Below are positions 1-57,808 of a DNA stretch of 64,000 nt, in pieces; position 1 is the first letter of the stretch; each line of letters begins with the position of its first letter. The notes below the pieces were generated by a model. The model did not search any database and was not told the origin of the DNA. It saw nothing but the letters and a program-made list of their open reading frames with translations. Origin of the DNA: Tribonema minus (lineage: Eukaryota; Sar; Xanthophyceae; Tribonematales; Tribonemataceae); NCBI GenBank assembly GCA_017506865.1, contig JAFCMP010000538.1, positions 124,001-188,000 of the forward strand. Reading direction: 5' to 3'. The translations under genes were made by a program, and so were the position numbers.

Positions 1-371
1 GAGTATGATCATATTAAGTAAGAAGGTTCATTCATGCCGCCTCACGCATGTGAGCCTGCATTTAGTTAGCCTCTATTAAATTATGCATTACACCATCAGC
101 ACATCATGAAAGCACAAACTTGCAGCTGTTGTACGTGTCAGTTCAATGAGTAGATGAGTAGACAAGTGGATCGGCACTGCTACTGCAATGGTGACGCTCC
201 TTACATCTGAGCACTGCCCATGACCTTACCACTTGCTTGATGTGCATACAATATATGTTTATCATTTCGCGCAGCTGGCAACCTGTTGGCAATGAAGGAT
301 GGGCAGCTGTGTACCTGATATTAGGCAGAGGTATCACTTGACGTGCATGCAATATTTGTTGTTTGTTGCAG
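1..371. other. Intron of the ABC1 kinase gene (window edge)
   Basis: No coding sequence was recognised here. The stretch ends at the acceptor (cag at 369-371) of the first visible ABC1-kinase exon. At about 273-312 it holds an imperfect copy of that acceptor and of the first codons of the exon, followed by an in-frame disruption. Confidence 0.6.
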
Positions 372-1090
372 CTGGCAACCTATTGGCGATGAAGGATGGG
401 CAGCTGTGCTTTCTTGACTTTGGCATGGTCAGTTACGTGGAGGCACAGCAGCGCTATGGCATCATGGAGGCCGTGGTGCACCTGGTCAACAGGGACTTCA
501 ACTCCCTCGCTAATCTCTACAAGCGGCTGGGCTTCATACCGCCAGAGCAGGCACGTCAAGTTCACTTTTTGTTTCTTCAGCTCTATGCTGCTGCTGTTTG
601 ATGACAAGTGATCGGAAAACAAGTGATCAGGGAGGGGGGTGGGGTCCCTTACGTCAGGACACCATAGGGGAGCACGGTATACTGCGGTTGTGCCGCGCTG
701 CTGTACTGATGGTGTATACAGGTGTACTGATGGTGTACTGCTGTACTGATGGTGTACACAGGTGTATACAGGAGTGTACAGAGCATACACCACTGACGAT
801 ATGGCGCGTCGCTTCTATTGCTTTTTGTATCAGGACACTGAGGCCACTGTTCAGGGACCTGGAGCTTAGGCGCGTTCGACACATACACCATGATCTGAAC
901 TGACGAGCAAGTAACGTTGCTTCTGATGCTTGCTCTGTCAGGACACTGAGCCCATTGCTTGCGCCCTGGAGCTTCGGCGCTTTTGACCCATACCCCATGA
1001 TCTGAACTGACGAGACATTACATTGCTTCTGTTGCTTCCCCCTATCAGGACACTGAGCCCATTGTTCGGGCCCTGGAGCTAGCGCTGCCC
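273..1090 (+). repeat. Tandem copies of ABC1-kinase exon 5' edges (acceptor side)
   Basis: Two sets are visible. The acceptor and first codons of exon 372-550 also occur at about 273-312. The acceptor and first codons of exon 1049-1176 (tcag then gacactgag and ccctggagct) recur at about 826-895 and 938-1015, each followed by the same non-coding segment ending ccatgatctgaactgacgag. Only the last copy of each set continues as open coding sequence. Confidence 0.8.
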
Positions 1091-4000
1091 GATGTGCTCA
1101 ACGCGAGTGTCTCGGAGCTCAACTTCAAGAACGTCATCAACAAGCTCGGCGACGTCATGTATACCTACCCCTTCAGGTGAGCCGTGTAGAGTAAGCTGCT
1201 GTTTTGGGAATGCAACTTCAAATCTTATAGGCATTCCTTTCAGGTCAATCATCAATGGTTGATGTCGCATGGCGCTGGTGCATCTGCAAGGGCACTAGGG
1301 TACCGGAGAGGAGTGTGCGGGGCAGCTGGTGGTGGGGTATGTAGACTATATTTTCAGTTGCTGTGGGGTATGTAGATATCTATGAGCCACTTGCAGTTGG
1401 CGATAATTGCGGTCACAAGTGTACATACATGCGGGCATGTGCTATTGTTGAGCACATGTGAGGTTGCGTTGCCCCGACATGATTTCTGGGCACCACTGCG
1501 GCTTCAGGACACAGTCGGCTTTGTAGTACTACAGGAAGCACCGTGACCCTTTGCATGCTACACAACTTCTCAGGCGCCTCTGTCGATGTGATATTTGTTG
1601 AGTTGATGCATGAGATCGGTTAGGGTAGGGTGAGGGTTAGCGTTGGGCAGCAGCTACATCCTGTTACATCCTGTTCACCTCAGTTCACGCTCGAGTACAG
1701 CTGTGCACCAGGTCGAGCTGCAACTTATGTGCATTGAGTGCACAAGAACTTGTCAAGAAGGGTTACCACCCACCTTCTTCATCAACTGATGATATATGGC
1801 GCATTGTGCTCTATGCTTACACAGTCAATGCATCAACGGTTTCATGAACAGTGGCGCTAACGCGAGTGATTTGATAGAAGCGATGGATATCGGTGCGCTG
1901 GTCATAAGCCACAGCCAACGTCAGTAGGGGTGGATGTAGCCCTAATATTAGGTCTATTTACAACCTAACTTCGCCTGCAGCCCCAGGAGCCACAAAAAGC
2001 TATGTATGTTTCACGAGTCCATTGCTGCGCCCAGATTGCATGCACCAGGCACACATGTAGACCATGTATGGTATGTAAGTATGCTGCAGCGCCGCACCAG
2101 CTCTGGAATCACACCACAACTGTCACGAAAGGACAAGTGAGTTGGCGTCCGCTTCAACCGCATCTACTTCAAGTGCTCTAACTTCAGATGTGTACCCGGT
2201 GAAACGAACTAGATACCAGTTGACATGACCTGCCCTTTGTCCCCCCCCCCCCCCCCCTTTCGTGCAGCCTGCCCCCCTACTACATCGCCATCATCCGGTG
2301 CCTTGGGGTTCTGGAGGGTGTGGCTATACAGGCAGATCCACAGTTCCGCATCATATCGGATGCCTACCCCTACATAGCCAGCAGGCTGCTCACAGATAGC
2401 TCCCCAGAGCTCCAGAGCGCACTCCAGCAGCTGGTGTAAGTGCTCACGTATTTTACTTCTTGTCGCATACTTCTATATTGTCATTTGATGATCACCGATA
2501 CTCACTATCGGTAGATGGTTTTGAGAGCGCGTTGCTGCAGCTGGTGTAAGTTACACTGCTCGCGTATTGTGTTCTTTGTTGCCTTGATACTCATGGTTGG
2601 CCTCAGTGAATGAACCGAGGAGTTGCACAGTGCGCTGAAGTAGCTGGTGTAAATATTCATGTAGGACACTTTTCTCTGACGCTTTGATTCATCAAGTTGG
2701 TCATTTTACGCTCATTGACTTTGGGTGCTGATACTCACTATGGGCCGGTCTGGTTGGGAGATATTTTAGGCACTGCTGCAGAGCGCACTGCAGGAGCTGG
2801 TACACTTGCATAATTCACGGAACTCATTCAAAACCGAGAATGGCTGTTGATGACATACTTTGAAGAAACTGGCTTTGTTGTCAGCTTGAGCATGTACACC
2901 TGAGCTGTGCCTTGTGTCTCGTCATACAATGAACCGAGGAGTTCCACAGTAGCTGGTGTAACTGCTCATGTAGGACACTTTGATTCTCATGCTTTGAAGT
3001 TGTGTCATTTGAATGCATGCAACGCAAAACGTCAGTGGATGGCAAACTTGCACAGCCTATCATGTCGTGTTACTGAGAGCATCAACCCGTGGTGTAGGTG
3101 GCTGTTGCTTGTTTTTGACATCTTGTCGCGTCTGTTGTCCATACATACTGCATGTGATTGATACAAGGATGGGCTGCTTCGGCGGCTATCGATACACACC
3201 ATATGCGTGACAACATACATACATACTGCGCGCACATTTGACCACCACCACACATGAATATGAGTGTGTGACTATATACATACAAACCGTGCATGACAGG
3301 TTCAAGGATGGGCGGCCGCGGTGGGAGCGCTTTGAGGAGCTGCTAATGGAAGCGCAGAACACGCGAGACTATGACGTTACCATGGCCCTCAATCAGATGC
3401 TGGACTATCTGCTCAGCGAAAACGGCCGCCCTATCAGGTATGCACTGTAGTAATGTCTACAAACAGTTGCGGCTGTCATGTCGCCTTTGCATTCAAGTGC
3501 TTGGCGAAGGTTGCTGCCCTACCAGGCACTTGTCGTATTAATTACATAGAAACCTGTGGTTATGACGTCACCATGGCCCTCAATCAGATGCTGGACTATC
3601 TGCTCAGTGAAAATTGCCGCCCTATCAGGTATAGCACAGCTGCAGTAATTTCTACATAAAGTGGCGGTTGTGATGCCGTTGTTGCTTTCCAAGCAGATGT
3701 TGGATAATGTAGTCGGCGAAAGTTGCTGCCCCGCTCATATACTGATTGTATTTATTACATAGGAAACCTTTGACTATGATGTCACCATGGCCCTCAACCA
3801 GATGCTGGACTATCTGCTCAGTGAAAATGGCAGACCCATCAGGTACTGTACCTACCGTATCCACAAGAACACTGCTGGTACCTACCGTATTTATCAGGAC
3901 GAGTGCATATGGCGTCACCATACATGCATACACATACATAAATACATACACTACCTCAGCCAAAACGGTCGGCCTATCAGGTGCGTACTGCAGCACCTGT

Positions 4001-5927
4001 ACATGAAAGTTGTGGTTGTGATGTCGTTGCTTTCAACCAAATGTTGGATAATGTGATCGGCGAAAGTTGCTGCCCTATCAAGCACTCAATGTATCCACTA
4101 CATAGGGAATAACTGCGACGATGATGTCACCATAGCGTTGAACAGTTGCTGGACTATCTGCTCAGCGAAAATGGCAGACCTATGACGTACCGTACCTGCC
4201 GTACACACCATAACACTTACGGTACCTATAATATTCATCAGAACGAGTGATTATGACGCCACCATGGCCCTCAACGAAATGCTGGACTATCTGCTCAGTG
4301 AAAACGGCCGCCCTGCCAGGTAAATACTGTAGAAACCTTGACATAAACTTGCAGTTGTGATGTCGCCGTTGCATCCAAGCAGATGTTGAATTATCTGCTT
4401 GGCGAAAGTTGCTGCCGTATCCAGTACTTGTCGTATTCACTGGGCTACCTATGATGTCACCATAGCGCCTGAACAACACAAACGGTTGGCCTATCTGCTC
4501 CGCCCCATCAGGTGACTACATACGGTACATGCAATGGCACCGGTGAACGGCCTGCCCGCCATGCGAGCGTGTAGATGTTTGTATGGGGGCGGGGGCGGGG
4601 ACTCATTCCCGCTGAATGATGTATACGTAAACATCCTCAAACAGCCCACCCTGATATCGCCTGCCTGTGATGCTAAAGAAGCCTCTGTGCACGGAGAGTG
4701 GACGATGTGCTTAGCTGATTATTACATGTCAAGTCACGTGATTCAGATCTGATGTTCGTGCTAGGGTTCAGTGATTTAGTGGCCGACCATGTGTGCAGCA
4801 GCCTAGTCTACCCGTTCAGGAGATCTCTTGGCAGACTCCACTCCTGCCGTTCTGCACCAGGGGTTGCCATGCCCTTCGTGCCTTAACCCTCATCCATCAC
4901 CTGCTGCTGCCACATTGCTCTGGAAGCAAGTCATCGACCAAGCCCCAATCCACTTATACGCCAGCCCTTCCTATCCCTAGCGAAACCACCGCCTCCTCTG
5001 CTGCTCGACTGAACCCCAATTCACTTGAAATCCAGCCCCCCTAACCCTAGCGCCACCACCGCCTCCTCTGCTGCTCAACCAAACCTCACTCCACTCAAGC
5101 CTCCTAATCCTAGCGCCACCACCGCCTCCGCTGCGGCCGTCACATACCTCAGGGAGCAGCTCAGTGAGCAGCTTGTTGAGGGCATCGACCAAGTCGGCAC
5201 GGAAACCCTCGAGTTCCTTACCACCAACTTGCGCCAGGCCTCCCTCGGAAGCCTCCCGGCGCTCCTCTCCGGTGACCGCCAGGCCTTGAGGCGCGCGCTA
5301 GCGGCGCAAGACCTCACCCCCGCGCTAGCATCACTGCTGCGCGTCGCGGGTCTCATCTCGCAGTCGGAGGGCTTCAATCCGCGCCGCGCGCTGCCGCTGC
5401 TGCGGCGCCTGCTCTCGGAGCCCGAGGCGCAGCGCCTGAGCGTGGAGCTCGCGCAGGCCCTCAGCGAGCGCGCCGTGAGCCGCATCATACGCACGGTGTT
5501 CAACGTGCCGCAGGCGCGGTTCACGCAGCCGGCGGCAGCAGCGGCAGCCAGGCCTCCTGCTCCCGCTGCTGCTGCTGCTGGCGTGCCAGTGTCGCGGCCT
5601 GCAGTGGCGGCGACAGTGCCGCAGGCCCGGGGGGCAGTGAATGGCGCAGTCGGCAGGGGCGGGGCAGACGTGAACAGCGTGGCAGCTGCAAGGGTCGCGC
5701 GCAGCAGAGTGGCTGCACCGCCGGTCGCAGCAGTGGCGGTGGCGGAGGAGACGGTGACGGTCATTGACGGCGGCGCGAATGGCGCTGCTGTAGTGGTGAT
5801 GACGACGGCCGCTGTGCCAGTTGCGGCGGAGGCAGTGCAGGCGACGCCCGTATCGCCAGCGTCGCCGGAGTACGAGAAGGCGCTGCAGAGCAGCGTGCAG
5901 CGACAGCGCCAGCGCCTCTCGCAGTGA
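372..5927 (+). CDS. ABC1/UbiB (AarF) family atypical kinase, chloroplast type, 5'-partial
   Basis: Exons: 372-550, 1049-1176, 2268-2435, 3300-3437, 5153-5927; all four visible junctions keep codon phase. The first visible exon carries the ABC1 signature GNLL (preceded by a split Pro codon, so PGNLL), then FLDFGM, the metal-binding DFG-like motif. Later exons give the family's conserved LPPYY..IIRCLGVLEG and DPQFRIISDAYPYIASRLL blocks, then the helical tail. The ATP-binding and KxGQ parts lie upstream of the window. The last exon adds an unusually long Ala/Pro/Val-rich tail of about 150 residues. ABC1 kinases of this group act in plastid or mitochondrial isoprenoid-quinone metabolism; which compartment applies here cannot be read without the N-terminus. 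Exon 1 appears to end at a GC donor (CAG|GCACGT). A C17 tract precedes the third acceptor. A TGTAA about 215 bp after the stop could belong to the 3' UTR. Confidence 0.88.
690..785. repeat. Short minisatellite in ABC1-kinase intron
   Basis: The units tactgatggtgta and caggtgta alternate imperfectly about five times. Confidence 0.7.
2421..2980 (+). repeat. Decayed copies of an ABC1-kinase splice donor
   Basis: The true donor (exon end 2435, cagctggt|gtaagt) is followed by degraded copies of the same exon end and intron start at about 2525-2560, 2630-2665, 2785-2805 and 2940-2985. Confidence 0.7.
3379..4520 (+). repeat. Array of copies of the 3' edge of ABC1-kinase exon 4
   Basis: About 60 bp of exon (atggccctcaa...ctatctgctcag...) plus its donor at 3379-3443 recur at about 3567-3634, 3783-3846, 3950-3985 (partial), 4128-4180 (partial), 4258-4324 and 4480-4515 (partial). 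Some copies keep an open frame and a usable GT donor. Copies are spaced 150-250 bp apart, and the linkers are related as well (agttgcggttgtgatgtcg). Confidence 0.88.
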
Positions 5928-6791
5928 GCACTTTACAGCAAGTTTTTGAGACACATTCACGCGCGCGCACACACACATACATGCACGCGTGGCCGAAAGA
6001 AGCCCCCTGGCTGGGGCCTGGCAGCCTCGGATTGTCACGACTGTCTTCTCTTAAGTTAAGGTTGTTACAATGGTGGGCGGTAAGAGTGGTGGCGGTGGCT
6101 CCTGAAGGGGAGGGCGCTCTGCATAGTGCCGCTTCTGAGCTGTGTAAAGAGATGTTGCCGCTTGACGCTGCGGCAACAGATGGCGTTACTACTGCTACTA
6201 CACTAATACCACACTTGCATATGCTTCCGTGTTGCTATTGATTGGACATGGGCGCGCTGTTCATGCGTGTGTCAGTAGTATCATTTTTGTGTGCTTCCGC
6301 CTTGTTGGGACCCGTCTTGTGTTGGTCACATTGCTTGTGGTACCTGCGGAATGCCTCACATGATCATGGCTGCCGCAGTTGACAATCCTGTTTCCGTATG
6401 CGCAATGTCAAGAGCTTACCAATGTTGCAGCACATGCAGATAACATTGTCAAGAGCTTGCCAATGTTGCAGCACATGCAGATGCACGCTATTAATGCCGG
6501 ACAATCAGAGCATGCAATGCGGGGTGAACCAGGAGCAAACAGAGACCATCAACAAGGGGAAATTCAATTGACACTTGCACGTATGCATTTATTTAGACGC
6601 GAACTCACTTCCTGCACCCAATGATATTGCTCTTGTGCACATCGGCAGGGGAACGTAGAACAAGCAACAGGATGTAGTCTACAAGCTCACGTGCCGCTGG
6701 TGAAACCAAGAAACAAAACTCATCTGGCAATACCACGGCACCATGTAGTGGGTTGCTGCCATTGTCACAAAAATGTCACTTGTGGCACTGT
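5928..6791. other. Intergenic region, convergent gene ends
   Basis: This lies between the stop codons of the ABC1 kinase (+) and the CBM6-like gene (-). It contains a 41-bp unit present twice in tandem at about 6405-6486 (tgtcaagagctt...gcacatgcag). No gene was recognised. Confidence 0.6.
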
Positions 6792-9051: not shown

Positions 9052-12000
9052 TTACACGAGTCGACTTGCGACTCGACTTGCAAACACCATGTGATTGTCC
9101 AGCTGTGCTGGATCCACAGCCACCCCAACATCACCTCCCACACATGTAACAACCGGCTTCCCCTCACGAACCTCAAACCCGTGCCGCTGCAGCAGCCCCA
9201 CTGCAGCCGCGAGCATTGCAGTGTTGTGCACTTCCATCACAATCTGGTCAATCCTCCCCCAGTCTTCCTCTGCGATGCCCGCCAAAACTGCCATCTCATT
9301 ACCCTCGACATCTATCTTCAAAATGTGTATTTGTTCCCGGTTGCCGACGCCTATTTCTCGCAGGGCAGAGGATAGCGTCCGTATTGTGCAAGGCTTGGGC
9401 GACCACTGCAGCGGCAGTAGAGCCGGGTTAATGGCGCGGTGAGTTGCTGCGGTGCGGTGACTCAGGTGCTGCTGAAGCGTGCTGCATGCCGGCGCCTGTG
9501 CGCAGTACCTGCAAAAAGCAGTTGGTCAAGACGCATCCGTGTGAGTATCTGAGGTGATGGAGATGCATATGCAGCTGAGATTACCTCTATGCCAGAAGTG
9601 ACCCTAATGCGAATGCTGACCGTGAGCTCAACTATGAAAGCTGGCACCTTAGGTAATTCAAGCCCTGAACCTAAGGCTTGCCATGCCCCTGCTGCTACCC
9701 TATCCCATAATGAATGAGAGTTACGCATGCATGTAAGGCGACCCTTGCCCTAGCCCTAACTTTGAGTCTACTCCTGAACTGATTTTTATGTGATTCTGAC
9801 CCTAAACCTGGCATAACACAAACGCCAGTGATTATCAATTGATTGGACATGCAGCACAATGGCACAGATGACAAGCGTACATGAGCAAAGCTCTCGTCCG
9901 TCCTTCCCCTAAGCCTGACCCCAACCCCAAAGCCAAGCAATTCCTCAAGCAATTTCTCGAAGACACCGAGAGGTGACCTCAACCTCAGTTGAGTGTACCG
10001 CCGTCGTTGTCCACTGGCCCGTAACCCTGACCCTAACCCTGACCCCGACCCTAACCCCAACAATAATCCTAACCCTAAACCTAATTCTGACTCACCAGAG
10101 TGTACCATCGTCGTCGTCCACATCCCCTAGTGCGCACGCCGCCACCACCGCCGCCTCCCCTGCGAAGCGCCGCAGATTGTAGCGCAGCGCGGACCGCAGC
10201 AGCGGCGACGGCTCAAACGCCGCTGTCCGCATGCGCGCCGCTTCCATAACGTCCGCCTCCAGCAGCATGAACAGCGAGAACAGCCCCACGTGCGCACCGC
10301 AGTCGACCACCCACCCGCCCGTTTCGCGCATTGTGGAGCCCTGCATGGCAGTGCCTAACCCTGACCCTAACCCTAGCCCCAGCCCTAAGGGCGGAGCATA
10401 CACGCGGTGCTCGAAGACCTCTTCATAGACGTGGTGGACATCGGATGCAGTGCCAGCAGGGTGTGCTGCGACCATGCCGTTGGCCAACTCCGACAGCGCC
10501 AGGCCAGTAGGCAGCGGCGCACAGCTAGGGTTAGGGTTAGACCCATTGGCAGCGATGCTCGGCGCTATGACTATGCCATTGGTCACCTCTGACAGCGCCA
10601 GGCCGGCAGGCAGCGGCGCACAGCTAGGGTTAGGGCTAGGCCCATCGGCAGCAGCGCTCCCATTGGTCAACTCCGACAGCGCCAGACCGGCGGGCAGCGG
10701 CGCACGACTAGGGCTAGGGCTAGGCCCATCATGATCGGCAGCAGTGCCCGGCGGTGGCCCAGCGGTAGGCGCCGCCGCGCGCGCGCAGCAAATGGCAGCC
10801 CTCCCGGACGTGCCAGCTGCCAGTGACGGCGGCGGCGGCGATGTGAAGGGGGAACCGCCACTGCCGCCGACGTGCGCTGGCATGTCAGCGGGATGATGAT
10901 GTTCAGCTGTTGTGTGCGGTTCACTATAATGGTGGTGTTCGTGATGTTCATCAGAAATCCCGTGCTCTCGATGATGCTCAGCAGTGTGTGCATGACTACG
11001 ATGGTGGCGATGATGATGATCAGCTGCGCCGTCATTATGATGATGCTCAACAGACTCAGAGTCTGAGTCTGCATCGCGCTGATGGTGATGACGATCAGCT
11101 GCGTCTGCGACAATGCGCGCAGCAGTAGAACGCCCAGTCTCCGCCCGAATCTTCACACCCAGGCACGCGCAGCGCAGGCGCATCGGCGGCGCGGAGGCGG
11201 TGCGCACGGCGCGTTCCACGGCGGAAAGAACGTTCCTCAGAATGGGAGCGTCAGCGTCGTGCCCGCGCCAGAGCGCGCTTTCCAGAGCCGTTCCGTAGTT
11301 GAGGTAGGAGATGCGCTCGGCCCAAAAGAACTGAAATGATCGAGGGAATGGCAAGGGGGGGCGGGGGGGTGGCAAGGGGTGAAAGGGGGTGAAAGGGTCG
11401 ATCGTGTCGTGCTCAGCAACAGCGAGATTGGATATGAGCGTTGAGAGCGCAGGGAGTAGCCACGCATTTTGCCAGGCACTTGCTGCTTGACCTGCAGCAG
11501 GATCATGATGCTCGGCCATTGTGCATAGCAGCATTTAGGCATGTCACATTTTGTGCACGGCTGTCGCCGCTGCCGCAATGAACAGCAGTACGTGCTGAGC
11601 TGCAAGCTGCACTTAAACTTTGCAGGCACTTCAACTTCACAAGTGATGCACTGTGTGCACCTGATGGAACATGACGACCTGCGCCAGCCCCGCTCTGAGC
11701 GCGGACATTACTGTTGAACTTCACATGCACACAAAATTCACATGTGACGCACCTGATCGGACATGAGCGGTGCAACGACCTGCGCCAGCCCCGTCGGAGC
11801 GCTGACATACTGTTGAACTTCACTTGCACAGAAACGTCAAACCTCACATGCGACGCACCTGATCGAACATGAGCGGCACGATGACCTGCGCCAGCCCCGC
11901 CCTGAGCGCTGCCGCCACCGTACCGCTCCCCCCGTGGTGCACCACCAGCTGACACCTGCCAAACAGCCACGCATGCGCCACGCTCCCGCGCAGCGCATAC

Positions 12001-12253
12001 ACCTTCCCTGCCGCCCACTCCCCTCCAGCACTCTCGCCGCCGCTCGAAAGCGCGTCTTCGCCACCGCAGCAGCTGACAATGACGCGCGCCCCCGCTGCCA
12101 GTGCCCCTTCCACCAATGCGCGCAGCACAAATGCGGGCGCAATGTCAGAGCTGAGCGCTGCCGCCGCCGCCGAGCCCAGGCTCACGTACGCCACGAGTCC
12201 ATCGCCGCGCGCCAGCCACTGCAGCAGCGCAGCCTCCTCCGCTGCCGCTGCTG

Positions 12254-12286
<33 letters not shown>

Positions 12287-12360
12287 GCGCTGCTGCTGCT
12301 GCCGCTGCTGCAGGTGGTGGTGGTGGTGGTGCTGCTGCCACCGCTGCTGCTGCCACCACC

Positions 12361-12402
<42 letters not shown>

Positions 12403-25155: not shown

Positions 25156-25189
<34 letters not shown>

Positions 25190-32700: not shown

Positions 32701-35700
32701 CACCTTCAACTTCACTCACATGAGGATCTGCTGTTTCAAGAGGCAGTTTTCAAGATCATCATGAGCAGCCAGCCTAATCAACTTCAACTTCACTCACATG
32801 TGAGGATCTGCTCCTTGTTGAAGAGGCAGTACTTCAGGATGTCATGAGGTTGTTAGTCTCTGCATGCTACCAACTGATTGTTAAAGCGCATTACACGACC
32901 ATACTGTGACTCATTGGGGTGTAGTTGGCCGCATGATCAACTTCAACTTCACTCACATCTGCTCCTTGTTGAAGAGGCAGTACTCGACGATGATCACGAG
33001 CAGCCCGCATTATCAAGTTTAACTTCACTCACATGAGAGGACAGCACTTCAGGATGCTAATGAGCAGCCCCCATCATCGACTTCAACTTCACTCACATGC
33101 GAGGATCTGCTCCTTGTTGAAGAGGCAGTACTTGAGGATGATCATGAGCAGCGCGCTGAAGCCAATCACGGACTCTGCATCCTGCCCTACTATCTGAAAG
33201 ACCTTGTCCGTGAAGGGGCTGCGCTCAATGTCAATGAGCGACAGAAACTCATCGCAGTCCACCGTGCCGGAGCCGTCTAGGTCAATGTCGTTGAACATGG
33301 CGCGCAGCTGCCGCACGTGCTTGTCGGGAACTGCAGTGCAGCAGTGCCCAGCGCAGCACAGAGCAAGTGGGGGTTGAGTACGGCTAGGGGCATAGGTATA
33401 GGGTAGTGTGGAAGGTGAGGATTGCTAGAGTTAGGGTTGCTATTGGGTGCCCCCTATTTAGTATATGGCGTGAACATGGCGCGCAGCTGCCTTCTGCGTC
33501 CTTGTCCGGAACTGGGTTAGCGCAGCAGTGCCCAGCGCAGCAAGTTTGGGGTGAGTGAGGCTACGATCGTAGAGGGCAGTGAGCTCTTGTTGCTGTTGGG
33601 TGCCCCAGTTATTAGAAGTACATGTCGTTGAACATGGCGCGCAGTTGTCGCACGTGCTTGTTTTTGCCGGAACTGCAGCAGTGCCCAGGCACAGCACAGA
33701 GCAAGTGTGGGGTCAGGCCTGCAACCATAGTTCAGGTGCAGGTGAGCTTTCGTTGCTATTGGGTGCCCCATTAGAAGCATGTTGTGCACATGGCGCGCAG
33801 CTGCCTTATGTGCTTCTCCAGAGCTGCAGTGCAGCAGTGCCCACAACAGCAGATTTCAAGTTTGGGGTGAGTAGGGTTAGGGCTAGGGTCATGGGGTAGA
33901 GTGACAGTGAGGGTTGCTAGGATTAGGGTTGCTTTTTGGCACCGGGTGCCCCCATGCGATACATCTTGTGAACATGCGCGCGCTACCCACTGACCCTAAC
34001 CCTAACCCTAACCCTAACCCTAACCCTAAACCTAACCTTAACCCTAACCCTAACCCTAATTCTAACCCTTGCTTGACCGGCTTGTGACAGCACGCACTGC
34101 ACTCAGGGTTTGCATGCCTTCAATAAGGCTTAGTAAACAGTAAACCAATGGTTCTAGGTGAGGGTCGAGTTCGGGTGCCCGATCGACGCACGTCGTTAGA
34201 TGTGGCGAGCAGTTTCCACATGTACTTTTATTATATTCCACTTGTGGCTGTGGAAATGTCATGTTGTAGGTGTGTCGCCTTGTTCTCACTCTTGGATGTA
34301 GCATGCAAAGCTTGCACGTGTACTTGACCAGAACTGCGGCTGCACTCAGGGGTTGAAGGCTGGAGATAGGTGTTGGAGTTAGGTGTTGCAGTGTTTGGTG
34401 GTCAGGTACAGGGTTAGGGCTACTCTTAGGGTCACGACTGGGGCTACGTCGAGGGGCTGCTGTTGGTGGCGCAGCAGCGCTCAGAAGAGCAGTAGCAGCA
34501 GTGCTCAACAAGAGCAGCAGCGCACACGGCCAGCCTGATGCTTCCATTCAGGTGCCAGGCTAGCGATGTAGCAAACCCTAACCCTAGATGAGCAGGATTG
34601 AAGCAACCGCGCTTGGGAATGGAAGCTGCACTGTGGACATTATAACTCTCGAGTAACCTCAATACATATCGTGGCTGCTGATCCTGCTGACACTGCCATG
34701 AGTGCTTCCCAATGATTGCTTCCCAAGTGCACCCTGAGCACTCCGCTTAGCTCATGTTGAGGTTGCGTCCTGACTTCTGGTCCTGGACTCACTCACTTTC
34801 TCACTCACTCGTTCACTCACTCATTCATTCGCTGCATCTCTGGCCCGCGTTTTTTTTTTTTGTGAGCATCGCTGCCCAGCTGAATAAACCACGCGTGAAC
34901 TGGCGTTGGTAGCAGCTGTTGGCAGCCTGTTGCAGGGCATGACAGTGTGACTCTCCTACATGTCTTGCTGACAGTGAAGTTGCCGTCAGATCCCGATCCA
35001 CACTAACCCTAACCCTAACCCTTACCCTAACCCTAACCACACTCGGCCTGAACTTACTGTAAAGCACAGCCGCCATGCATTCCGGGAAGCGTATGCACAC
35101 TGCCCATCATGATGACATGCTGACGCAATTGTACAAGCAGTGCCGACACTCATCACGCTGCGCAGAACACACCCACAAGCTGGGCCACACAGAGAGGGCA
35201 ACCGACAGGCACCCGTCTGCTCATGACGGCAGCGCCTTCAACGCCGGCCCTACCGCTACCCCTAACCCAAACCAAAAAAAAAAGCAAGACACAGCTCATG
35301 TGCGCCCAGGTGTCGTCACAACAATGCATTTTGGTGCCTGTGTACGACTGTACTGTTGTTCGACAATACCTCGGCGCACTATCAGGATCAGGCCACTTGC
35401 CTACAACAGATGTATGGCGCAATACACCCAAAACAGAGATGACAACAACTAGGCACTTGCCTACATATTGTTGAGTGCCGCATTGTCAACACAATGCCTA
35501 CAGTACTTCTAATGCGAAGTGCGCAGCCAGCTGTTGTCAACGAGCACATTGCAGGCACCGAGGCACGCGCACCATGTACATTATTACTGTGTTGGCAACG
35601 CCCGGCCGCACACTACGAGAGGCTGAATCAGACTTAGCGTGAGAGCTGAAGCTCAACCTGCAGGCTGAAGCAGGCTTTACGAAATAGGGCTCAACTTCGA

Positions 35701-37587: not shown

Positions 37588-40500
37588 ATGAGCAACCTGG
37601 GAGAAGAAACCATATTCAACCTGCTTCCCAGGGAGGAGGTGAAGGCAGAGAAACCTCCGCGCTACAGGAGCTTGTTTGACCCGAAGTCGCCTGTGCCATA
37701 CTCAACCTTCAAGAACACTGGCGGCGGTGTATGTAAGTGACACATGCGTGGTGATAAAGTTTCACGCGTGGCCGCGCTGACTGGCGCCTGCTGACAAGTC
37801 CTGCCGTAATAATGGTACTCATGATGCACCTCGCGACTTGCTCTGTCGAACAGATGGCAAGAGAGACGGAGGCTCGCACAAGCCTGATGTGTACCTGAAG
37901 AGAGGCACTGGTTCGGCGGGAGGTCCATCGCACACCGTCCGATCTACTCCTGAGAAGCGACCTGAGAGAGGGGAAGACTTGCGTAAGGCGGCGGTGCCAC
38001 TGGCCAAGGAGCGGCCTGTAATGGGCGTGAAAGCCGACAAAAACTTCATCACAGGTGCGTTACTGCTGCTGCCGAAGGAATGTGTACACTGTTGAAGTCT
38101 GCATCAGAATCTACGCAGATGGGGACAAGAGGTGGTGTTGAGTGCAGGCATAGCAACAGCTATGCTGTGATCTCAGCCGGTTCTGCCGCCTGGAGTGCCG
38201 CCTTCCAGTTTCAGTAATGTCGTCACCACGGACACTAAATACGCAGCACAGGTAGGCCTGTACCAGCACAAACTTTAAAGCTGGCAGCTGACGACACACG
38301 TGGATGCTTACTACCGTAAAGAAGTAGGGGCACGTCCCCACCATTCAACTTCAAGTAGCACTCCCCCCTTCATTCAAGGTGGAACTTCTCTCCACAAACG
38401 GCATGGCCCCGCCACTGTTTGTCTTGATTTGACGTGACATAGAATGGCTGCTGATAACACCGGTGAGTTGCACCGCCTTGACACATGGCAGAAATCACGC
38501 TGCTTGCTGCCGGACATTGGCACATGGTAGAACACATGCTGCCTGCTGCCAAACGTAACAAGCCCGACCGTTGCCGAGCATTTAAGTTGCAGGTACTTAT
38601 CAGTAGTGGTTTGTACGGCTGCAAGGCGGAGCCTCTTCAAAGCGGTTACAGTATGAATATATCCCTGCTCATGAGCTGCCAGATTTGGCCTAGTAGTGTT
38701 CTTCGCACTTCAATGGTGTCTGCTTTTGTACTACGCCAACGTGTTCTCTCTCAGTGGCCAAGGGAGTACACCAGCCATCTGCTGCATGACACAATTGCAG
38801 CAACACTGCCACTCACTTTGACTTGCCACTGCAACCACATCTGAATCGTGACATGCTCACAAACTGCCTGCCTCACTAGCTTGCTGTGATGCCCCTTGTG
38901 ACCTGCCGCACACGTACGCTGCGCAGCCAACGCCGTGAATGCCATTCTTGCAATAGCATCAACACTGCCACTCATGTTGACTAGCCACTGGGGCCACATC
39001 TGAACCGCGTCATGCTCACAGATCGTCTGCCTCACTAGCTTGTTGCTATGCACTTGTGCTTACTGCCTCACGTACGCTGCGCAGCCAACGCCGTGAACGC
39101 CATTCTTGCGGTGCCCAAGACGCGCACGCCCCCCACCATTGACTACCTGGCAAAGGAGGACTATGGCAAGGTACCGGCCTACCTGGGTCAGATCAAGGTG
39201 AGTCACAGTCAGAGTCAAAGTCACCTTCACACTTTCAAGCATTGTGCATGCTGTTTGTGTGATTGGAGTGCGAAGTATGCGAGTTCTCGCTGCGAGCTCA
39301 TCAGTTACTTCCCTTTTTGTCGCTGTACGGTAGGTAGATAAGATAGGGGGGCTGATAAATGTGCACAGTCAGAGGGCAGCTGCATGCATGCATGACTGTA
39401 GATCAACAAGACAATGTGTGAGTCACGGCTGCTGGCTGCATGTAATTAAATTCTACCTCTCGTGTGATGAGTCGGAGCTGTGTTCGCTGGAGCAGCAGCA
39501 TGCTAACCCTAACCCCTGACACGCATGCAGTCATGGCAGTAGTGCTGTGCAGACGCAACAACAATAAGAGGGCACACAAAGGGACATGGTCAGCACATGT
39601 TCACTTCTGCATAGCTGTTGATCTTACTGCCGTATCAAAGCAGTACTTACCGGTGGAGAACACAGCACGTGTGTGCGCGCAAATGGTATCGTGATGCCTT
39701 GATGTGCCTGTGAGCAAGCGTGCTTACTCTGGCGTGTATGACTCTCATACAACTACTGCATCGCGCTGTCTTTTGCATGTATGCACAGGAGGAGATTCAC
39801 GCAGAGAGTGCCATGATAGACGAGTTCGTCCGGGAGCAGATGGGGCTCAACAACATCGTGCAGGCAAGTGTCAACGCATCTTGCTCAACGACCATTTCAG
39901 CCTGCGCCTGATGCAGAGTAGAGACACTGCCATGGTCGTGATGAGTACTGCAGGCAAGTGCTAGCGCACTTCTCTCTAGCGCACTTCTCTCTCGTTGGTT
40001 ACCTTAACCTGCGCCTAAAGCACAGAGCGGGGACAGTGCATGCTACGCACTGCAGCATGGTCATGATGATTGTGCAGGCAAGTGCCAGCGCATCTCTCTC
40101 AATGACCACTTTAGACTGTTCCTGAAGCAGAGTGGGGACAGTGACTTGGTCATGATGGGCACTGCAGCATATTCGTGATAGTACATACTGAGGCATGGTC
40201 ACATGATGAGCACTGCAGCAGGCTGAGCAGTGCTGCTGCATGATCAGCACTGCAGCAGTGCTGCAGCAGCATGCTGAGCACTGTTGCATAGCCGCATGAT
40301 GAGCACTGCAGCATGGTGACCTGTGCAGCATGGCCATTGCAACGTAAACACGGCCGAATGTGGCAGAACATGGTACAGTCTACATGCCAATGCTTTCTGC
40401 AGACCGTGCGTCGGCTTATGCAGAAGCCGGCAATGCGCAGTAGGATCTCTGGGCATTCGCATTCATTGGGAGTTCACAGCGAGTACAGTTGAGCGCTGTT

Positions 40501-45560: not shown

Positions 45561-45933
45561 ATCCTGAGTCATGTTGCAGTAATGATGATTATTTCTTAAG
45601 ACACAGACCCACCAATAACATGCAAGTGAGCATCTTGTTTCCTTTGACAACTGCCTGTAACTGATAGGAATGCAGATGCCGTTGCTCTGACATTTGCTCG
45701 TCAAGCGTGTGTGATGGGTGCGCAAAATCACACGAATCATGCCTTGATTTGTCCTGAAGCATGCATACATACTCTGGCACGGCGCCCAACACTGTTCTGT
45801 CGCATAGACATGCAAACGCCTGAGACACCAGTCACATGGCAAATCATGCAAGTGCCACAAAAAACAACACGACCACAGCCTTGACAATGTCATGAATGCT
45901 TTACAGGGCTGCTCTCGCCACACCACTCTGCAG
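45561..45933. other. Short convergent intergenic region
   Basis: Shared 3' region of the zinc-finger gene and NOM1. No feature was recognised. Confidence 0.5.
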
Positions 45934-48900: not shown

Positions 48901-51900
48901 GTAGTCAACATGTAACATGCATACCATTAAACCACCGGGCTGGGAGGTATGCCTGCTGGAGTGGCATACCTTGAAGATGGATGGTTAGGGTTAGGATTAG
49001 GGGTTAGGGCTAGGGTTATGCTGCGATAATCATGACTTGAACTGCATGTTTATGGTGCCTCAAGCCCTCTCAGTAAACAAGTCGCCAATAAACTGCAACC
49101 ACATGTGTTCTGCATGTAATATGAGGTACTGCAGAGTTTGAGAAAGATTGCACTGCCCGAATTTCCACAAAACGTACGAGTAGTAACGTAAAAAACAACA
49201 AGACCGCCTTCCACACCCTCACAATCATCGCAGGCTTGAGCAATGACCCTCATTCACCAGCGCCACTCTCCTTCTCCTGCAAGTACGTCTGCTGAGCAAT
49301 GGATGATTAGCCAGCTCACCTCATCATCTGCCCCCTCCCCGCCCCCCCCCTGTTTACCCTCGCCGCCCCCCCCCTCCCCCTCCCCATCACCCCCCCCTGC
49401 CGCGCCCCCCACACCAGTCCACGCCGACCCAACCAGCCACCACCGCCCCCTAGTCTTGACCCCATCCGTAAGGTCTGACCACCCAACACGTAAGCTGGTG
49501 TCAGCTCCAACGCCCCCCTTGGCCGACTTGACCGTGCCCAGCCACCGCCGTAGGCGCTGAGATCTGTCCTGGCCGCCCGCCGCTGCTGCGCGCCGCTTGT
49601 TGTTCTTGAGGTCCGCGATTGCGTCCAGCATGAATTGCACCCTGCGGTGGCGTTCAATGAAGGGTTGGGGCTAGGGTTAGGGTCACCGCAGTAGGATGCA
49701 CAGCCGGGCAGAGCGAGCGTAATGAGGGTTTGCCATGTGTATTTGTACATACCCTGTGCCGTTCAATGGATGTACTAGTGCGGCAGGGTGCATAGCCAGG
49801 CGGAGCGTGCATGATGAGCGTCTGCCATGTATATACATACGGTATGTCATGTCTTAGGTACATATCACACGTTGCACCGACATGCACATATCGGACAGAT
49901 TGTGCATCCGCCGTCGGCCCTGCTATTATGCCCTGCTGTTGTGCCGGATGGGGTGCCTGTCGCTGCACACTGGTTGCTATGTGGTGAGACCAATGCGTGC
50001 ATCGTAATGAAGTCCCCGTGCTGGCATATGCGGTATTGTGACACGATGACAATGCATTGGTACATATGCACCTGGATCGGCACTCACCAATGCAGAAATG
50101 GGTTTCTTCAGTACCAGCAAAAGCGCGCACTTGCTGCGGGCAGTAGGCGGCTTCTTGACTACTGACATCCACATGCATGCACCCACCCACCATCATATGC
50201 ACGGACTTGAGGAGTTGTTTTTGTGAGAAACGACCACACTGGCTCATGACGCAACCCTTTCCGCCTTACGTGAACGCAATTCACCCAAATCCACTCTACC
50301 ACCACCGTGTACGCTCCTGCAACATTCTCACACATCCTCATTCATGCAAAGCATCCACACACACCTGACACCGTGCCCCTCCCCCTCCCCCTCCCCCTCC
50401 CCCTGCGCCGCCAGCACCTCCGCGGAGCGCTGCTTCACCAGCAGCACCACCTCGCGCAGCGCGCTCGGGTCGTCCGCGCGCAGCTGCGCGCCGCAGTGCC
50501 GCAGCAGCAGCAGCAGCAGCTCCACCTCCACGGCGCCGAAGCGCGCCACGAGGCGGCGCACGAGGTCGTAGACGAGCGTGCAGTGCGCGACGCCGAAGAC
50601 GTACAGGTAGCCCAGCAGCAGCGCCAGGTTGCTGCAGCGCGCGCGCTCCTGCTGCCGCCGCTGCTGCTGCTGCCGCCGCTGCTGATCATCATTGTTTGTG
50701 TCGGTGTTATCGTCTCCCAGCGCGGCGTTGAGTTTGTTGGCCAAGGATTCGAGCGCGAAGGCGCCGACTTCGCGGCCGACAGTAATGTTGAGCGCTGATA
50801 GCAGGGCCGCGTAGGGGGGCACCAGCGTCGTCATGATCTGCGGCGCGTGAGCAGGACAGTGCACAGGGTCTCTTAGTTGCTGCCCGTGCCCTGGGCGTTG
50901 CGAGTGCGGTTCGTCACGTGCAAAGTTGTAGCAAGGGTTAGGGTTAGGGTTATAGCGTCGTCATGATCTGCGACGCGTGAGCAGAACAGTGCGCAGCGTC
51001 AATTAGTTGCTGCACGTGCCCTGGGCGTTGCGATTGCGGTTCGTCACATGCAAAGTTGTAGTGAGGGTTAGGGTTGGAGTAGGACACCAGCGTCGTCATG
51101 ATCTGCGACGCGTGAGCAGAACAGTGCGCAAAGTCACTTAGTTGCTGCACGTGGTGTGGGGCATTGCGAGGGCGTTTCGGCATATGTGATATTGTCTCGG
51201 GGGGGCGCAGCGCATAACTCCAAACTTGACTTTACTTGCTGGTCACAAGCTCGACGGTATGCGTGTCCGACGCTGTACCAGCGCAGAGATTGCCTGCCGT
51301 GAGTTCCAGCAAGCTTTGCCGCCGTCACATTGACACTGTACGCACTGGTGAACCTGGCATATGCACATGTGAAGAAAGGTTGCTGGGTGCGCACGTTCGT
51401 GTGCGCTGGCGCATGGCAGGTTTGTGCCTGCCGCAGTCTCTGTCACACAAGTCCGGCGCACCACGCAGCATGAAAACATATCCCACCTAACATACCAGAC
51501 ATACCTAATAGCCACACACCCTACCTGTGTATCGTGCACGCACACCGCGCACGTGGCCTCCACCAGCAGGTCGTTCATGTCGCGCGTGCTCTGGCCGCGG
51601 TACATGTCCGCCAGCGCCCGCGCCACAGGGTCCAGATTCTCCTCCGCCATCCTGTTCAGCTGCCCGTTGAGCATGCGCCGCAGCTGCTGCAGCTTCGCCG
51701 CGTCCGTGCTGCCGCCGCCGCGCAGGTGCGGCGGCACGTACTTGCTGCTGCCGCCGGCAGCAGCAGCGGCGGCGGCGCCGGTGGCGCGGCCGTAGATATC
51801 CTGGCCTGCCACCGGCTGATATGTCGCGCCCGCGTCAATGTCTGCTGCGTAGGCGCCGCCGCCGCCGCCGTCGCCGCTGCTGCTGCCATCGTCGTCGCTG

Positions 51901-52739: not shown

Positions 52740-52792
52740 AGCGCAACGGTGCCACACACAACCTTCGAAGCGAAAACAACAACTTCACGTTG
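52740..52792. promoter_or_regulatory. Extremely short divergent spacer, NOM1 / amidohydrolase
   Basis: Only 53 bp separate the two start codons. Either transcription of both genes starts within the spacer or the transcripts overlap. It contains cgaaaacaacaacttcacgttg; no known core element is visible. Confidence 0.6.
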
Positions 52793-55700
52793 ATGTTGAA
52801 GTTCAGATTTTGTGAAAACATGAAAACTTTCAGCGTGTGTGCGCCAGTGATGAATGAGCTACCGCAGAGCAAAATCACGTCGGGCACGCGCAAACGGGTT
52901 CTGTACACTAATGCCAAGGTGTGGCAGTGGGGAGAAGGCCTGGCACGCACTGGGCATGGCGCCACGTACTCTCTAACAGACTGGTTTGCCGTAAGCCTAG
53001 AAGAGTTCAGCGGCAGCAGCGGCAGCGGCAGCTGTACCTCCTCTATCCTGCAAGCTGGCATCGCGCCAACCCCTGCGGAAGCCAACTACGATTCTGTCAT
53101 AGACCTCAAGGGAGCTCTGGTGGTTCCTGGTTTGCAGGATGCTCACATTCATGTAGGTACGCAGATTCGACACATTGTCGTTGAAAATCTGATCTATTAG
53201 CCCATATATCCTGGTGCCTGCCGACTGCTCCATCGCCAATGTAAGCCAGCTCAATGTACAAAATCTCTCTGCCGCTGCCACGGCAGGTTACACAGGAGAA
53301 TCGGCGCACTACGTGGATCTGAGTGGAGCGCAGTCAATACCAGAGCTGTGGCAATTAGTGCAGGCGAAAGCGGATAGGTCAGCGCCATGCACTGGAATGC
53401 GTTGTAGATTCCTTGCATCTTCAGCCATGCATCACTTCAGCAGCGCCTCTTGATGTGAGCATTAAATGCAACTCAGCACTCTTACCTGGCATTGATGAAA
53501 ACGAATCAAAAGATCGTAGAGCTCTAGGTGACAAGGGATGGTTAGCCGCAAGTGCCTTCCACCAATAACTGTGGTCGCCGCTGCTGCAGCAATTGGCCAC
53601 GAGTCAAACAGTACCACCGTATCCACCAGTCAAAAGACTTTGTGTGCAAGCTTTAGCGTTCGAGGCATGGGTGTTCAGTATTGGAAAGGTCTCACGTGTT
53701 CGATATCATCTGTTGACACGTACGCACTGCTTCTCGTTCCCATCCACACAGCCACCCTGAGCTGTCCTGGCTAGTAGGCGTGGGCTGGGACCAGACAAAC
53801 TTCGGAGGCGTCTATCCGTCCCGCAGTGACCTGGACACAATCGCCAGCGGCAACAGACCCATATTACTCTACCGCAACTGCTGGCACATTGGCGTGGCCA
53901 ACAGCGCGGCGCTGGAGCTATCGGGGCTGATCGCTCGTGACAGCGCCACTGGCGAATGGCGGCCGTGCTCCGATAAGTTTGCTGTGGCGGGGGGGCACGT
54001 TGATGTTGATGGCGATGGGCTGCCCTCCGGCATCGTAAGGGAGACGGCGGTGGAGCTGGTGACAAAGCACATGGGCGCGTCGTCTCACGATGAGCGGCTG
54101 GCGTTTTTCTCCGCGGCGCTGCAGCGGTGCGTGGCGAATGGGCTCACGGCTGTTCAGGTAAGGCGCATTGTGACTTTCCTAGCCTCTACAGACAGGGTGA
54201 CTGTGGCAATCGGAGTTGTTGATTACAGCTTACCAAAGTGTAGTTGAAGCGCACAAAGGTCCTTAGACGGTGTTGTTGGCTGCTATGCTTGCAGTGACCA
54301 CCGTTCTCATCTGTACCTATACAACTACACATACCGACAGCGCGAAACGATGTGTGTCAGTGTGTCCGCATGTGCCTGTGTACCCCCAGCCTCCCCCACT
54401 ACCCTCCGCACACACATATTTCCCCTACCTACGCTCTATACACTTCCACATCAATGGGCCGCTCACGCCTCCTCCCTCTGCCTGCAGACAAACGACGGCG
54501 TTGAGGGCCTGCCAGTGTATCAGGAGCTGCTCGCAGCCGGCAAACTGCCGCTACGCGTGCAGCTCACCATACAGTGCTCAGATCTGCAGCGCTCCCGTAC
54601 CACTGCAACTGGTGACGCCCCTCTAGAGCCTCTGGACGGCTGCGACACACGCGGCATGCTGACGTGCAAGCGCGTCAAGATCTTTGCCGATGGGTCGCTA
54701 GGGGCGGAGACGGCTGCGCTAAGGGTCCCGTACAGGGGGAAGGGGAAGGAAGCAGCAGCAGCGGCGGGGGCGGCGGCGGCAGCTGATAATAGAGGCATAC
54801 TGGTGCACACTTCAGAGGCGCTGACTGCGCAAGTGAAGTTGGCCAAGGAGAGGCGCTTCAGGTAGGTAGTTTGAGTCACTTGCTCATGCCATCACGCATC
54901 AGAAGAGATAGGTTGGTGTGCTGTCACGCTGATAAAAGGAGGTGTCGGTCTGTCACATCGAAGGCATCTATTGCCCATTTAAGGGTCAGGTGCTTAGGGT
55001 GACGCTTAGGGTTATGCGTTACCCTCAAATAGGGTTTAGGTGCTTCCAACCTCGCATGCGCATTCTTGCTCCGTGTCATGGACGTGTCTGTTGTCGAGGC
55101 AACGCTCTACATGCATACTGCCTGAGTTAGGGTTAGGTCTAACCTTACATCTAACCTTACATCTAACCCTAACCCTAACCCTAACCCGAGCTTCCGCTGC
55201 AATGCTCATCATGAAGCTGCCATAGGCACTGCTGACGTTTAGCCACATAGTCTACACTTGCTCCAAGACGGCTCTGTCAAGGTCAACGCAGCGCAGTCAT
55301 CACGTGTTGATGCAACGTCGAGAGCTGCTGCTGCTCACTAGCCTGTTGCTCCACACCGACAGCAGTTGGCATCAAGACGCCAGCCTTGGGCTGCTAGAAC
55401 TGAATCCATTTGTGGTCTGTCTGTTGGCAAGGGTAACTCCCGTAACCGTCAAGCGTGCAACCGCCAACGAGCATGGAACTGCCATTGTGCGTAACTGCCA
55501 AATGTCACTCACTGCCTCCCATGCGCTCCTCTGACACATAGGCTGGAGGTCCACGCCATCAACGGCAATGACACGATGAGCATGTAGCTGCCAACTGCTC
55601 CAACAACAACAATGTCTTCGCCTCCTGTGCGCTTACCCTGACAGGCTGGAGGTCCACGCCATCGGCGACAGGGCAGCGGAGCAAGTCCTGGACGCATTTC

Positions 55701-57808
55701 GCGCAGCAGCGCTCAGCGAGGCTGACCGCCCCATCCTCACACACTGCCAGATACTTGGCCCGGATCTAGTGGAGCGCATGGCGCGGAGTCATGTTGTGGC
55801 TAATATACAGCCGAGCTTTGTGCCGACGGATGGCCGGTTTGTGAGGGAGCGGCTGGAGGACGCTGTGGCAGCGAGCAGCTACTGCTGGAAGGACATGATG
55901 AGGGTAGGTATGCTGCGTTTGCGGTACGCGCATAGGTACATACGATTGAAGACGAGGACGCTGTGGCAGCGAGCAGCTACTGCTGGAAGGGCATGATGAG
56001 GGTAGGTATGCTGTGTTGCCGAGACACGCATACATACCATCGGAGGCCAATTGTGGTGTGTGCTGCGTTTGCGAGACGCGCATACATAGACGCGCATACA
56101 TCAGGACGACCACCATGTATAGTTGGCAATGTGTAATGCATGTGTTCCTGGCATCAGCTACAGTCATTGTTGTGCATTGGCATGGATCTTCTCGACCAAC
56201 TTTCATGGGCTTATGTCGCCAGTGTGTCTCTTGGAGCTGCGTCAGGGCAGTTTGGTTGGCACCTTCATGTGCGCTGCCTGCTCAGCAAACTCACAAGTGA
56301 TATGATCACAACTCATGTTTTTTACGAACAATTGGTCTCTGCTACACGAGAGTTCATGCGCTTGCAGCTCTGCCTGTGCAACTGAATCTCTGCATCATAT
56401 GTGCTTTGGTGGCTGCTGCGTCTGCAGGCGGGCGTGATGTGCGCCGGCGGCAGCGATGCTCCCGTTGAGCACTGCAGCCCACTACACGGCATGCACGACG
56501 CCATTTACAGGGAGGCAAGGCCCGAAAAAGGCGACCAATCACAAATCGCAGCAGCAGCCACGGTCCACCAATCAGATCCACTAGCAGCAATATCAGGTGG
56601 CAGCCAATGGTGCGTTGGCAATGTCTTCTGGCCCGATCAGCGGCTGACGTTTGCAGAGGCTCTGTGGTTGTACACCAAGGGCGCCGCGTTCGCTGACGGT
56701 ACGGAGGCGGTGTCGGGGGCCATCGCTGCGGGGGCTCGCGCGGATTTCACCGTGCTAAAGGCGGAGGTGCTAGAGGATCCACGCCGGCTGCTCGATGCGG
56801 ACAGGTGAGCACTGACATCAATTTCAACTTCAATGTGCAGGTTTTGGTCGCGAGCTGCAGCGCTCTGTGTGGAGTGGGACGGTGTACTGGATGCTTTTGC
56901 GCCTTAGCACCAGCTTTAACCAACGGCACACAACACTTTGTTGAGCCCGCGTCCTCCTTACACGTGAATGCCCCACGTACATGCCTGTATGTATGACCGT
57001 GCCACGTCACGACGCCTTCACTTTGGGTGCAATAGTAGCTGTTTAGGTCCATTCACATGCATATAAGCTTTGAAGCACGGTTTTGCGTGTGCCTGTGAGT
57101 GATGACACAATGCCAGGCTGGCATGAGGGTTGATGGGCAATGCGTGCCATCTATATACTTGAAGGAACCTGGATGTTCACTCCTCTCTCCCGCGGTCGTG
57201 ATTTGTGGCGGTGCAACGCCTGCCTTCGTAACCATGAGGAATCCATTGAGGATGCAATCGCCCTTGTGCTGTGGGCTAATAACGTTTTTCTGTATAGCTT
57301 GTTAGTGAATGTAGCTTTTATTTGTAGACTGGTGATGAATGTGTAAAATTCATTTTTGACTGCGATGGCGGGGCGATGACGAGTTTTCAGCACTGCACAA
57401 AGGTGCGCATGCACAAGGCTGCATAGAAGTACATATTTGTTTCAGCTTCTTCATCCACCAGCAGCCGCAAGTCTCATCATGCCAGCAACTTCAATTCATG
57501 GGACAAGTGATTTGCCTTCGTGCCGAGTCTCCATTTCAACGCTCCCATGCGCCATGCAACGCAGCGTGCGGGAGGTGTGGGTGGCAGGCGTCAGGCGCTA
57601 CAAGCACAGCAGCGCTCAGGAGCCCCCGCCTGTCGTGACTAAAGTGGATGGCCCCAGCGCACCTGGCAAAAATGGCATGACAAGGGTCCCTGATAGTGAC
57701 AATAATGGTGGCAGTGGTGTGGGAGCACTGCCACAGGTGCGCGTGCGGCGCTGTAGATGCTGCACGGGAGATGCGAGCGCCGGTGAGCTGCAGACAACGA
57801 CAAAGTAG
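52793..57808 (+). CDS. YtcJ/LAF3-like metal-dependent amidohydrolase
   Basis: Exons 52793-53156, 53296-53377, 53752-54157, 54488-54861, 55645-55903, 56428-56804 and 57565-57808 join in phase to about 701 residues. Metal-site motifs of the amidohydrolase-3 family appear in order: VVPGLQDAHIHV, CKRVKIFADGSLGAETAALR, EVHAIGDRA, ILTHCQ and CAGGSDAPVE. The conserved ELSWLVGVGWDQTNFGG and NCWHIGVANSAAL blocks support YtcJ/LAF3. All metal ligands are present, so hydrolase activity is likely; the substrate is unknown (plant LAF3 affects phytochrome A signalling). The C-terminal exon encodes VREVWVAGVRR then an unconserved Ser/Gly tail. Introns after exons 4 and 5 hold copies of exon edges (gctggaggtccacgccatc at 55540; the exon 5 end at 55966-56003). 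Confidence 0.9.
53495..53622. repeat. Dispersed ~128-bp element, copy 2
   Basis: Partner of 46250-46377, here in the second intron of the amidohydrolase gene. Confidence 0.82.
55126..55187. repeat. Telomere-like repeats in both orientations
   Basis: TTAGGGTTAGG is followed directly by about seven CCTTACATCTAA or CCCTAA units, so the array inverts within 62 bp. Intron of the amidohydrolase gene. Confidence 0.88.
55536..56012 (+). repeat. Copies of amidohydrolase exon 5 edges
   Basis: The acceptor edge of exon 5 (gctggaggtccacgccatc, 55645) has a copy at 55543. The donor edge (gaggacgctgtggcagcgag ... catgatgag|ggtaggtatgctg, 55856-55912) has a copy at 55956-56011. Both edges of one exon are thus duplicated into the flanking introns. 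Confidence 0.88.

Follow-up and report, generated by a model that had tools for sequence, protein, structure and literature searches.

Introns of Tribonema minus were found to carry decayed tandem copies of their own exon edges, splice site included. The observation was confirmed and proved frequent in our sample, in which 33 of 96 introns placed by a gene finder held a copy of at least one adjoining edge. Such copies, termed decoys below, are direct and adjacent repeats lying within 3 kb and usually about 100 bp apart. Judged from the sequence patterns, they most likely arise by local tandem duplication, with splicing acting as the filter, and exon edges and certain genes are probably favoured.

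Edge copies in the genes of the window

The window is a stretch of 64,000 nucleotides and forms part of contig C535 (the genome comprises 158 Mb in 554 contigs). It was examined by self-alignment, by a tandem-repeat search and by direct reading of the letters. The self-alignment gave 52 same-strand repeat pairs with an offset below 3 kb. The first-pass annotation of the window had described decayed tandem copies of donor as well as acceptor edges in its genes, and these were borne out by self-alignment and sequence reading (Table 1). Its gene names held in part. Pfam matches above the cut-off were found for ABC1, EF-hand, enkurin, WD40 and amidohydrolase, whereas the pieces called FkbM and NOM1 matched no family; the names AMBRA1, FkbM and NOM1 are those of the first-pass annotation only. 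The GT piece matched EryCIII-like_C slightly below the Pfam cut-off.

Table 1. Real and decoy exon edges in the window, with positions counted from its first nucleotide
Feature	Positions	Strand	Basis
ABC1 gene: decoy acceptor-edge copy of 337-408 (real exon from 372)	236..311	+	82.9% identity over 76 columns; sequence read; ABC1 Pfam domain
ABC1 gene: two decoy acceptor edges, then the real one (exon from 1049)	807..1080	+	offsets 108 and 214; 81-82% identity
ABC1 gene: exon end with donor 3437, then about 7 decoy donor edges (7 non-overlapping, each of at least 18 nt)	3361..4475	+	self-alignment; sequence read
ABC1 gene: two decoy acceptor edges ahead of the exon starting at about 5112	4934..5151	+	76% identity over 157 columns; offset 71
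Glycosyltransferase-like gene: donor-edge copies downstream of the exon ending at about 11859	11613..11911	-	self-alignment; gene-finder intron
WD40 (AMBRA1-like) gene: decoy acceptor edges 26707-26918, real edge 27168-27265	26707..27265	+	self-alignment; gene-finder intron 26220-27248
EF-hand gene: real donor edge 30952-31027, GC-donor decoy 30818-30892	30818..31027	-	93.4% identity over 76 columns; sequence read
EF-hand gene: real acceptor edge (exon from 31145 downwards), short decoy	31132..31285	-	27-nt match, 96%; sequence read
EF-hand gene: exon end with donor 33096, at least 5 decoy donor edges	32565..33156	-	self-alignment; sequence read
EF-hand gene: real acceptor edge (exon begins 33330), at least 3 decoy acceptor edges	33285..33983	-	self-alignment; sequence read
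Enkurin gene: tandem repeat of period 159 reaching into predicted exon 39084-39200	38792..39109	+	83.2% identity; exon by coding score only
Enkurin gene: repeat from about 9 bases within the exon at the donor (39864), classed as under the 15-nt exon reach	39855..40167	+	self-alignment
Gene named NOM1 in the first-pass annotation: real acceptor edge at about 50840, two decoys upstream	50817..51186	-	85% identity; offset 130
Amidohydrolase gene: decoy 55514-55560, real acceptor edge 55620-55663	55514..55663	+	self-alignment; sequence read; gene-finder intron 54862-55644
Amidohydrolase gene: real donor edge (donor 55904), one decoy 98 bp downstream	55856..56032	+	91.1% identity over 79 bases

The ABC1 gene is the clearest case, with acceptors at about 371, 1048 and 5111 and a donor at 3437. 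Its gene-finder intron 551-1048 has an acceptor family, its exon 5112-5528 is predicted by coding score without a Pfam match, and only short, weak copies follow its donor near 2437. In the EF-hand gene four edges have decoys, and in the amidohydrolase gene two. Real and decoy edges of these three genes were placed by sequence reading; the glycosyltransferase-like, WD40 (AMBRA1-like), enkurin and "NOM1" cases are based on repeat coordinates and coding-score exons and, for some, on predicted introns. The repeat at the glycosyltransferase-like intron 11105-11858 takes in 53 exon bases, and a whole-genome search with the "NOM1" repeat returned its own place only.

Other repeats were also seen in the window. 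The tandem-repeat search found the telomere-like unit CCCTAA in short contig-internal arrays, several of them intronic (10022-10084, 32009-32067, 33993-34069, 35003-35038 and 55138-55187). Long GCT/TGC triplet repeats lie at 12241-12430 and 12564-12634, near the glycosyltransferase-like gene. Positions 59703-60998 hold a 651-bp tandem duplication that is 98.5% identical and far younger than the edge copies.

Frequency and position of edge copies

Kinesin motor genes served as a sample from outside the window. A Pfam search gave 132 matches; 20 gene regions were taken, and from these we kept 30 introns in 17 loci, with junctions set from domain positions and the splice consensus. The initial 31 junctions were reduced to 30 by dropping the low-scoring one in locus L044; in L037 a junction at a decoy donor was exchanged for the upstream donor, and the retained junction L048 5250-8512 is doubtful, as the gene finder splits that intron. 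Donor copies were present in 9 of the 30 introns, acceptor copies in 9 and either type in 13, while shuffled introns gave an edge match in 0 of 150. A gene finder trained on the kinesin exons was then applied to the window and to the 20 kinesin regions. With the first settings it over-split introns and had 2 of 30 right; with the penalty used, -13, 22 of 30 were exactly right. It predicted 154 introns, 101 of which had exon scores of at least 5 on both sides, and a minimum length of 60 nt left 96 of these.

Both edge types were affected, as the first-pass annotation had proposed, with donor copies in 19 and acceptor copies in 20 of the 96 introns. Introns of other loci matched in 20 of 480 cases per edge, and reversed introns in 4 of 96. 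Copies from the own intron covered 20% of exons at the donor edge and 18% at the acceptor edge; examined to 240 nt, coverage was zero beyond 105 nt from the donor and 120 nt from the acceptor. The edge was reached by 66 of 78 exon-to-intron matches. That exon-internal pieces are seldom copied also held, since non-edge matches occurred in 12 of 96 introns compared to 37 of 480 in one control and 9 of 96 in the other. The proposed focus on boundaries was not fully supported, since boundaries are not exclusive: 19 of the 63 repeat families in the gene-finder set were wholly intronic. Local repeat families made up about 21% of the sampled intron bases and edge families 13%, in line with the claim that existing introns are lengthened. 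Introns with edge copies were longer than the others (median 679 vs. 567, P = 0.05). Within the 30 kinesin introns, the smallest offset was 57-174 bp in 23 of 26 families, and edge families overlapped the exon by 20-112 nt, declining away from one edge.

Part of this focus on boundaries is expected, because exon-internal duplications would not persist and the copy in the exon escapes decay. In simulations with a uniform duplication rate, the share of families at an edge was 0.35-0.38 when events dated back no more than 0.17 substitutions per site, and it reached 0.55-0.63 among the oldest events; other settings gave 0.37-0.45, 0.32-0.38 and 0.30, and allowing existing repeats to amplify did not raise the simulated share. 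The gene-finder set had an observed share of 36 of 55 (P = 0.0004 against 0.42), the kinesin set one of 18 of 26, the 8 of 63 families whose exon matches stop short of the edge being excluded from these tests. Families overlapping the exon or lying at most 30 nt from it numbered 46 of 55 compared to 42% simulated, a comparison in which the real multi-copy families were longer than the simulated ones. A span-matched permutation, covering families with offsets up to 400, gave a reach of at least 15 nt into the exon for 31 of 47 families against 15.5 expected and for 14 of 23 single pairs against 6.9; the corresponding numbers in the kinesin set were 18 of 25 against 6.8 and 6 of 9 against 2.8.

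Intron ends were also compared with the exons cut away. By permutation, 26 of 42 families lay at most 30 nt from an intron end, against 14.2 expected, and there was no excess within 10 nt (12 vs. 11.6 families). Matched cuts were evaluated first at a tolerance of 8 nt, where 13 of 146 real ends compared to 5.1% of cuts gave an interval that includes zero, and later, once the permutation had shown a difference for 30 nt and none for 10 nt, at a tolerance of 30 nt, where 25 of 146 real ends compared to 8.4% of random cuts gave a ratio of 2.0 (by-locus interval of the difference 0.014 to 0.155). An approximately two-fold excess of duplications at intron ends is thus probable, and part of it could reflect bases next to splice sites that decay more slowly. 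Edge copies clustered by locus (27 of 71 introns, 22 groups, P = 0.008; P = 0.012 within length classes), and did so in the kinesin set (P = 0.004; P = 0.07 within length classes). It is conceivable, although we regard it as doubtful, that some mutational process makes the exon-intron boundaries of particular genes preferred starting points for tandem duplication, and that introns of this lineage thereby grow from the splice sites. If so, decoy edges would hold dated snapshots of the exon.

Divergence of the decoys and comparison of paralogs

The exon-derived parts of decoys were 89.5% identical to the real edge in 32 donor decoys and 85.1% identical in 42 acceptor decoys, and the intron-derived parts 76-77% identical. 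The exon part was thereby less diverged than the intron part by a factor of 2.2 (donor) and about 1.6 (acceptor), close to the factor of 2 expected if the decoy alone changes in the exon part and both copies change in the intron part. The splice bases of decoys decayed like exon bases, with 57 of 64 GT bases and 74 of 84 AG bases kept, and were neither protected nor purged.

Among 207 distinct changes between exon and decoy 87 were synonymous, compared to 63.6 expected from random placement on the same base, a test that covered exon-decoy changes only; synonymous substitutions in the exon itself would suffice to explain this excess. Changes were biased towards C-to-T (42 of 207) and G-to-A (36 of 207). 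More synonymous changes than under random placement (P < 0.05) were found in 5 of 17 separately tested sets, and in the ABC1 set differences between decoys were low at second codon positions (0.095 vs. 0.179 and 0.188). Base-biased mutation may explain the latter. Both observations are unexpected under strict neutrality unless the mutation bias depends on the base. Some decoys in intron 1 of L037 retain the protein reading. For the most part, decoys appear to evolve near-neutrally.

A search for the light-harvesting family gave 92 matches and one for the RuBisCO small subunit gave none, and the best PDB relatives of one of the light-harvesting exons were fucoxanthin chlorophyll proteins. Such a gene content would point to an alga with a red plastid, probably an ochrophyte. 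Contigs C1 and C79 carry two related pairs of light-harvesting genes, approximately 90% identical over the aligned exons. This is a single pair of loci that came up in a search for length differences. In the plus-strand gene of C1, two decoy acceptors and three decoy donors flank one exon; with two decoy acceptors in the neighbouring gene, the C1 locus has seven decoys at three edges. The C79 locus had no self-repeats at E 1e-4 in the 5.0 kb examined. An intron common to both paralogs measures 966 bp in C1 and 660 bp in C79, so that length alone differs in this pair and no new position was created, which again agrees with the lengthening of existing introns. At exon sites that vary between the paralogs, 31 of 43 decoy cells matched C1, 9 matched C79 and 3 had neither base (counted by hand). 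The seven columns with the C79 state in a decoy were all third codon positions, with the frame set by eye. The simplest reading would be that the decoys arose in the C1 copy once the paralogs had separated, followed by changes at some synonymous sites of the C1 exon; such later change would make the decoys snapshots of the exon. In the C1 light-harvesting genes, very long poly-C tracts lie directly ahead of real and decoy acceptors (L053 5270-5640; about 1510-1830 for the gene on the opposite strand).

A second paralog pair, on C511 and C57, had no edge copies. The C511 gene has an extra intron of approximately 300 bp (L055, about 852-1148) that is absent from C57 (L056, about 713), with GCGCAGGT or a close match at both intron ends. 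The arrangement recalls introns gained when an AGGT site is duplicated.

Origin of the copies and comparison with known systems

The best account of these observations, and one that we hold with fair confidence, is frequent local tandem duplication, tolerated across splice sites, with the spare copy decaying. Short segments, mostly of 57-174 bp, would often be tandemly duplicated in or near introns. Duplication within an exon would alter the protein and presumably be removed. Duplication spanning a splice site would be tolerated, because the copy joined to the coding sequence keeps its splice site and the spare copy lands in the intron. The result would be a longer intron with a decoy edge, after which the decoy would mutate more or less freely and the exon mainly at synonymous sites, as the divergence patterns suggest with some exceptions. 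It is moderately supported that intron ends would be duplicated about twice as often as the intron interior and that some genes would be hotter than others.

Local duplication could also be uniform and without boundary preference, edges seeming favoured through the exon copy that does not decay and the removal of duplications within exons. This alternative has a limited but real chance of being correct. It would fit the wholly intronic families (19 of 63), the 8-nt matched cuts and an intron-only coverage of 0.29 and 0.25 at the ends compared to 0.22 in the middle of kinesin introns of at least 400 bp, but it is at odds with the gap between the simulated shares (0.30-0.45, and 0.55-0.63 for the oldest events) and the observed 36 of 55, with the span-matched permutation (31 against 15.5) and with the two-fold ratio at 30 nt.

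Functional copies, that is alternative exons or splice sites under selection, are improbable. They would agree with the protein reading retained by some decoys (L037 intron 1), the excess of synonymous change in 5 of 17 sets and the small differences at second codon positions among ABC1 decoys. Yet the majority of copies include no more than a portion of an exon (20-112 nt), decoy GT and AG decay as exon bases do and the pooled synonymous excess is small, so functional decoys as a general rule were not favoured. A mobile intron-like element (introner) copying itself among genes could explain why many introns are affected; this is very improbable, since the one array searched genome-wide matched a single place and introns of other loci matched an edge in 20 of 480 cases compared to 19 or 20 of 96 for the own intron. 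Equally hard to believe is an assembly artefact, as divergence among the copies of one set reaches about 30%, exon parts differ less than intron parts and copies occur on many contigs.

Intron lengthening is usually attributed to transposons. Under local tandem duplication, a simple and datable process would do a visible part of it, unevenly among genes. The decoys would leave a record in which the order of duplications and the synonymous changes of the exon can be read, and decoy splice sites within introns would offer a natural test of site choice by the spliceosome. They are also a trap for gene prediction; our gene finder called a decoy region in L050 an exon.

Intronic minisatellites are tandem arrays within introns with units of around 100 bp. 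The arrays described here resemble them in unit size and location, but their unit includes the exon end and the splice site, and selection on the exon preserves one of the copies. A 2009 study by Gao and Lynch reportedly described internal tandem duplications that cross exon-intron boundaries. Passages in two reviews cite that work (PMC3443670; PMC3488318), and parts of other reports describe a duplicated intron-exon boundary giving a new intron in a potato RdRp gene (PMC4974935), human internal tandem repeats at exon-intron boundaries (PMC2812944) and new intron positions through duplication in Drosophila (PMC2891723). The present copies are of this kind, in that direct, neighbouring tandem segments span the boundary and duplicate the splice signals, with 66 of 78 matches reaching the edge. 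In the passages available, the published cases stress a new intron or a changed exon (PMC4974935; PMC2812944), whereas here existing introns lengthen with apparently unchanged coding, at many edges and in many genes, and often with several copies. No description of genome-wide intron growth by edge duplication, or of an edge bias, was present among the literature matches listed, from a search with most subscription journals outside its scope. Boundary-spanning duplication is thus already known; intron growth on such a scale and the edge bias may be new, as this limited evidence faintly suggests.

Intron gain through tandem duplication of an exon segment containing AGGT, as outlined in parts of a review (PMC3443670) and of a Drosophila study (PMC2891723), likewise yields spare splice sites within genes, but the copies at the edges studied here sit in a pre-existing intron and create no new position. 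Mutually exclusive duplicated exons differ in that duplication takes in the entire exon and its two splice sites, compared to an overlap of 20-112 nt in the 30 kinesin introns. Introners differ in placing similar copies at unrelated loci, which were not seen for the one array searched genome-wide; introns of other loci matched in 20 of 480 cases per edge.
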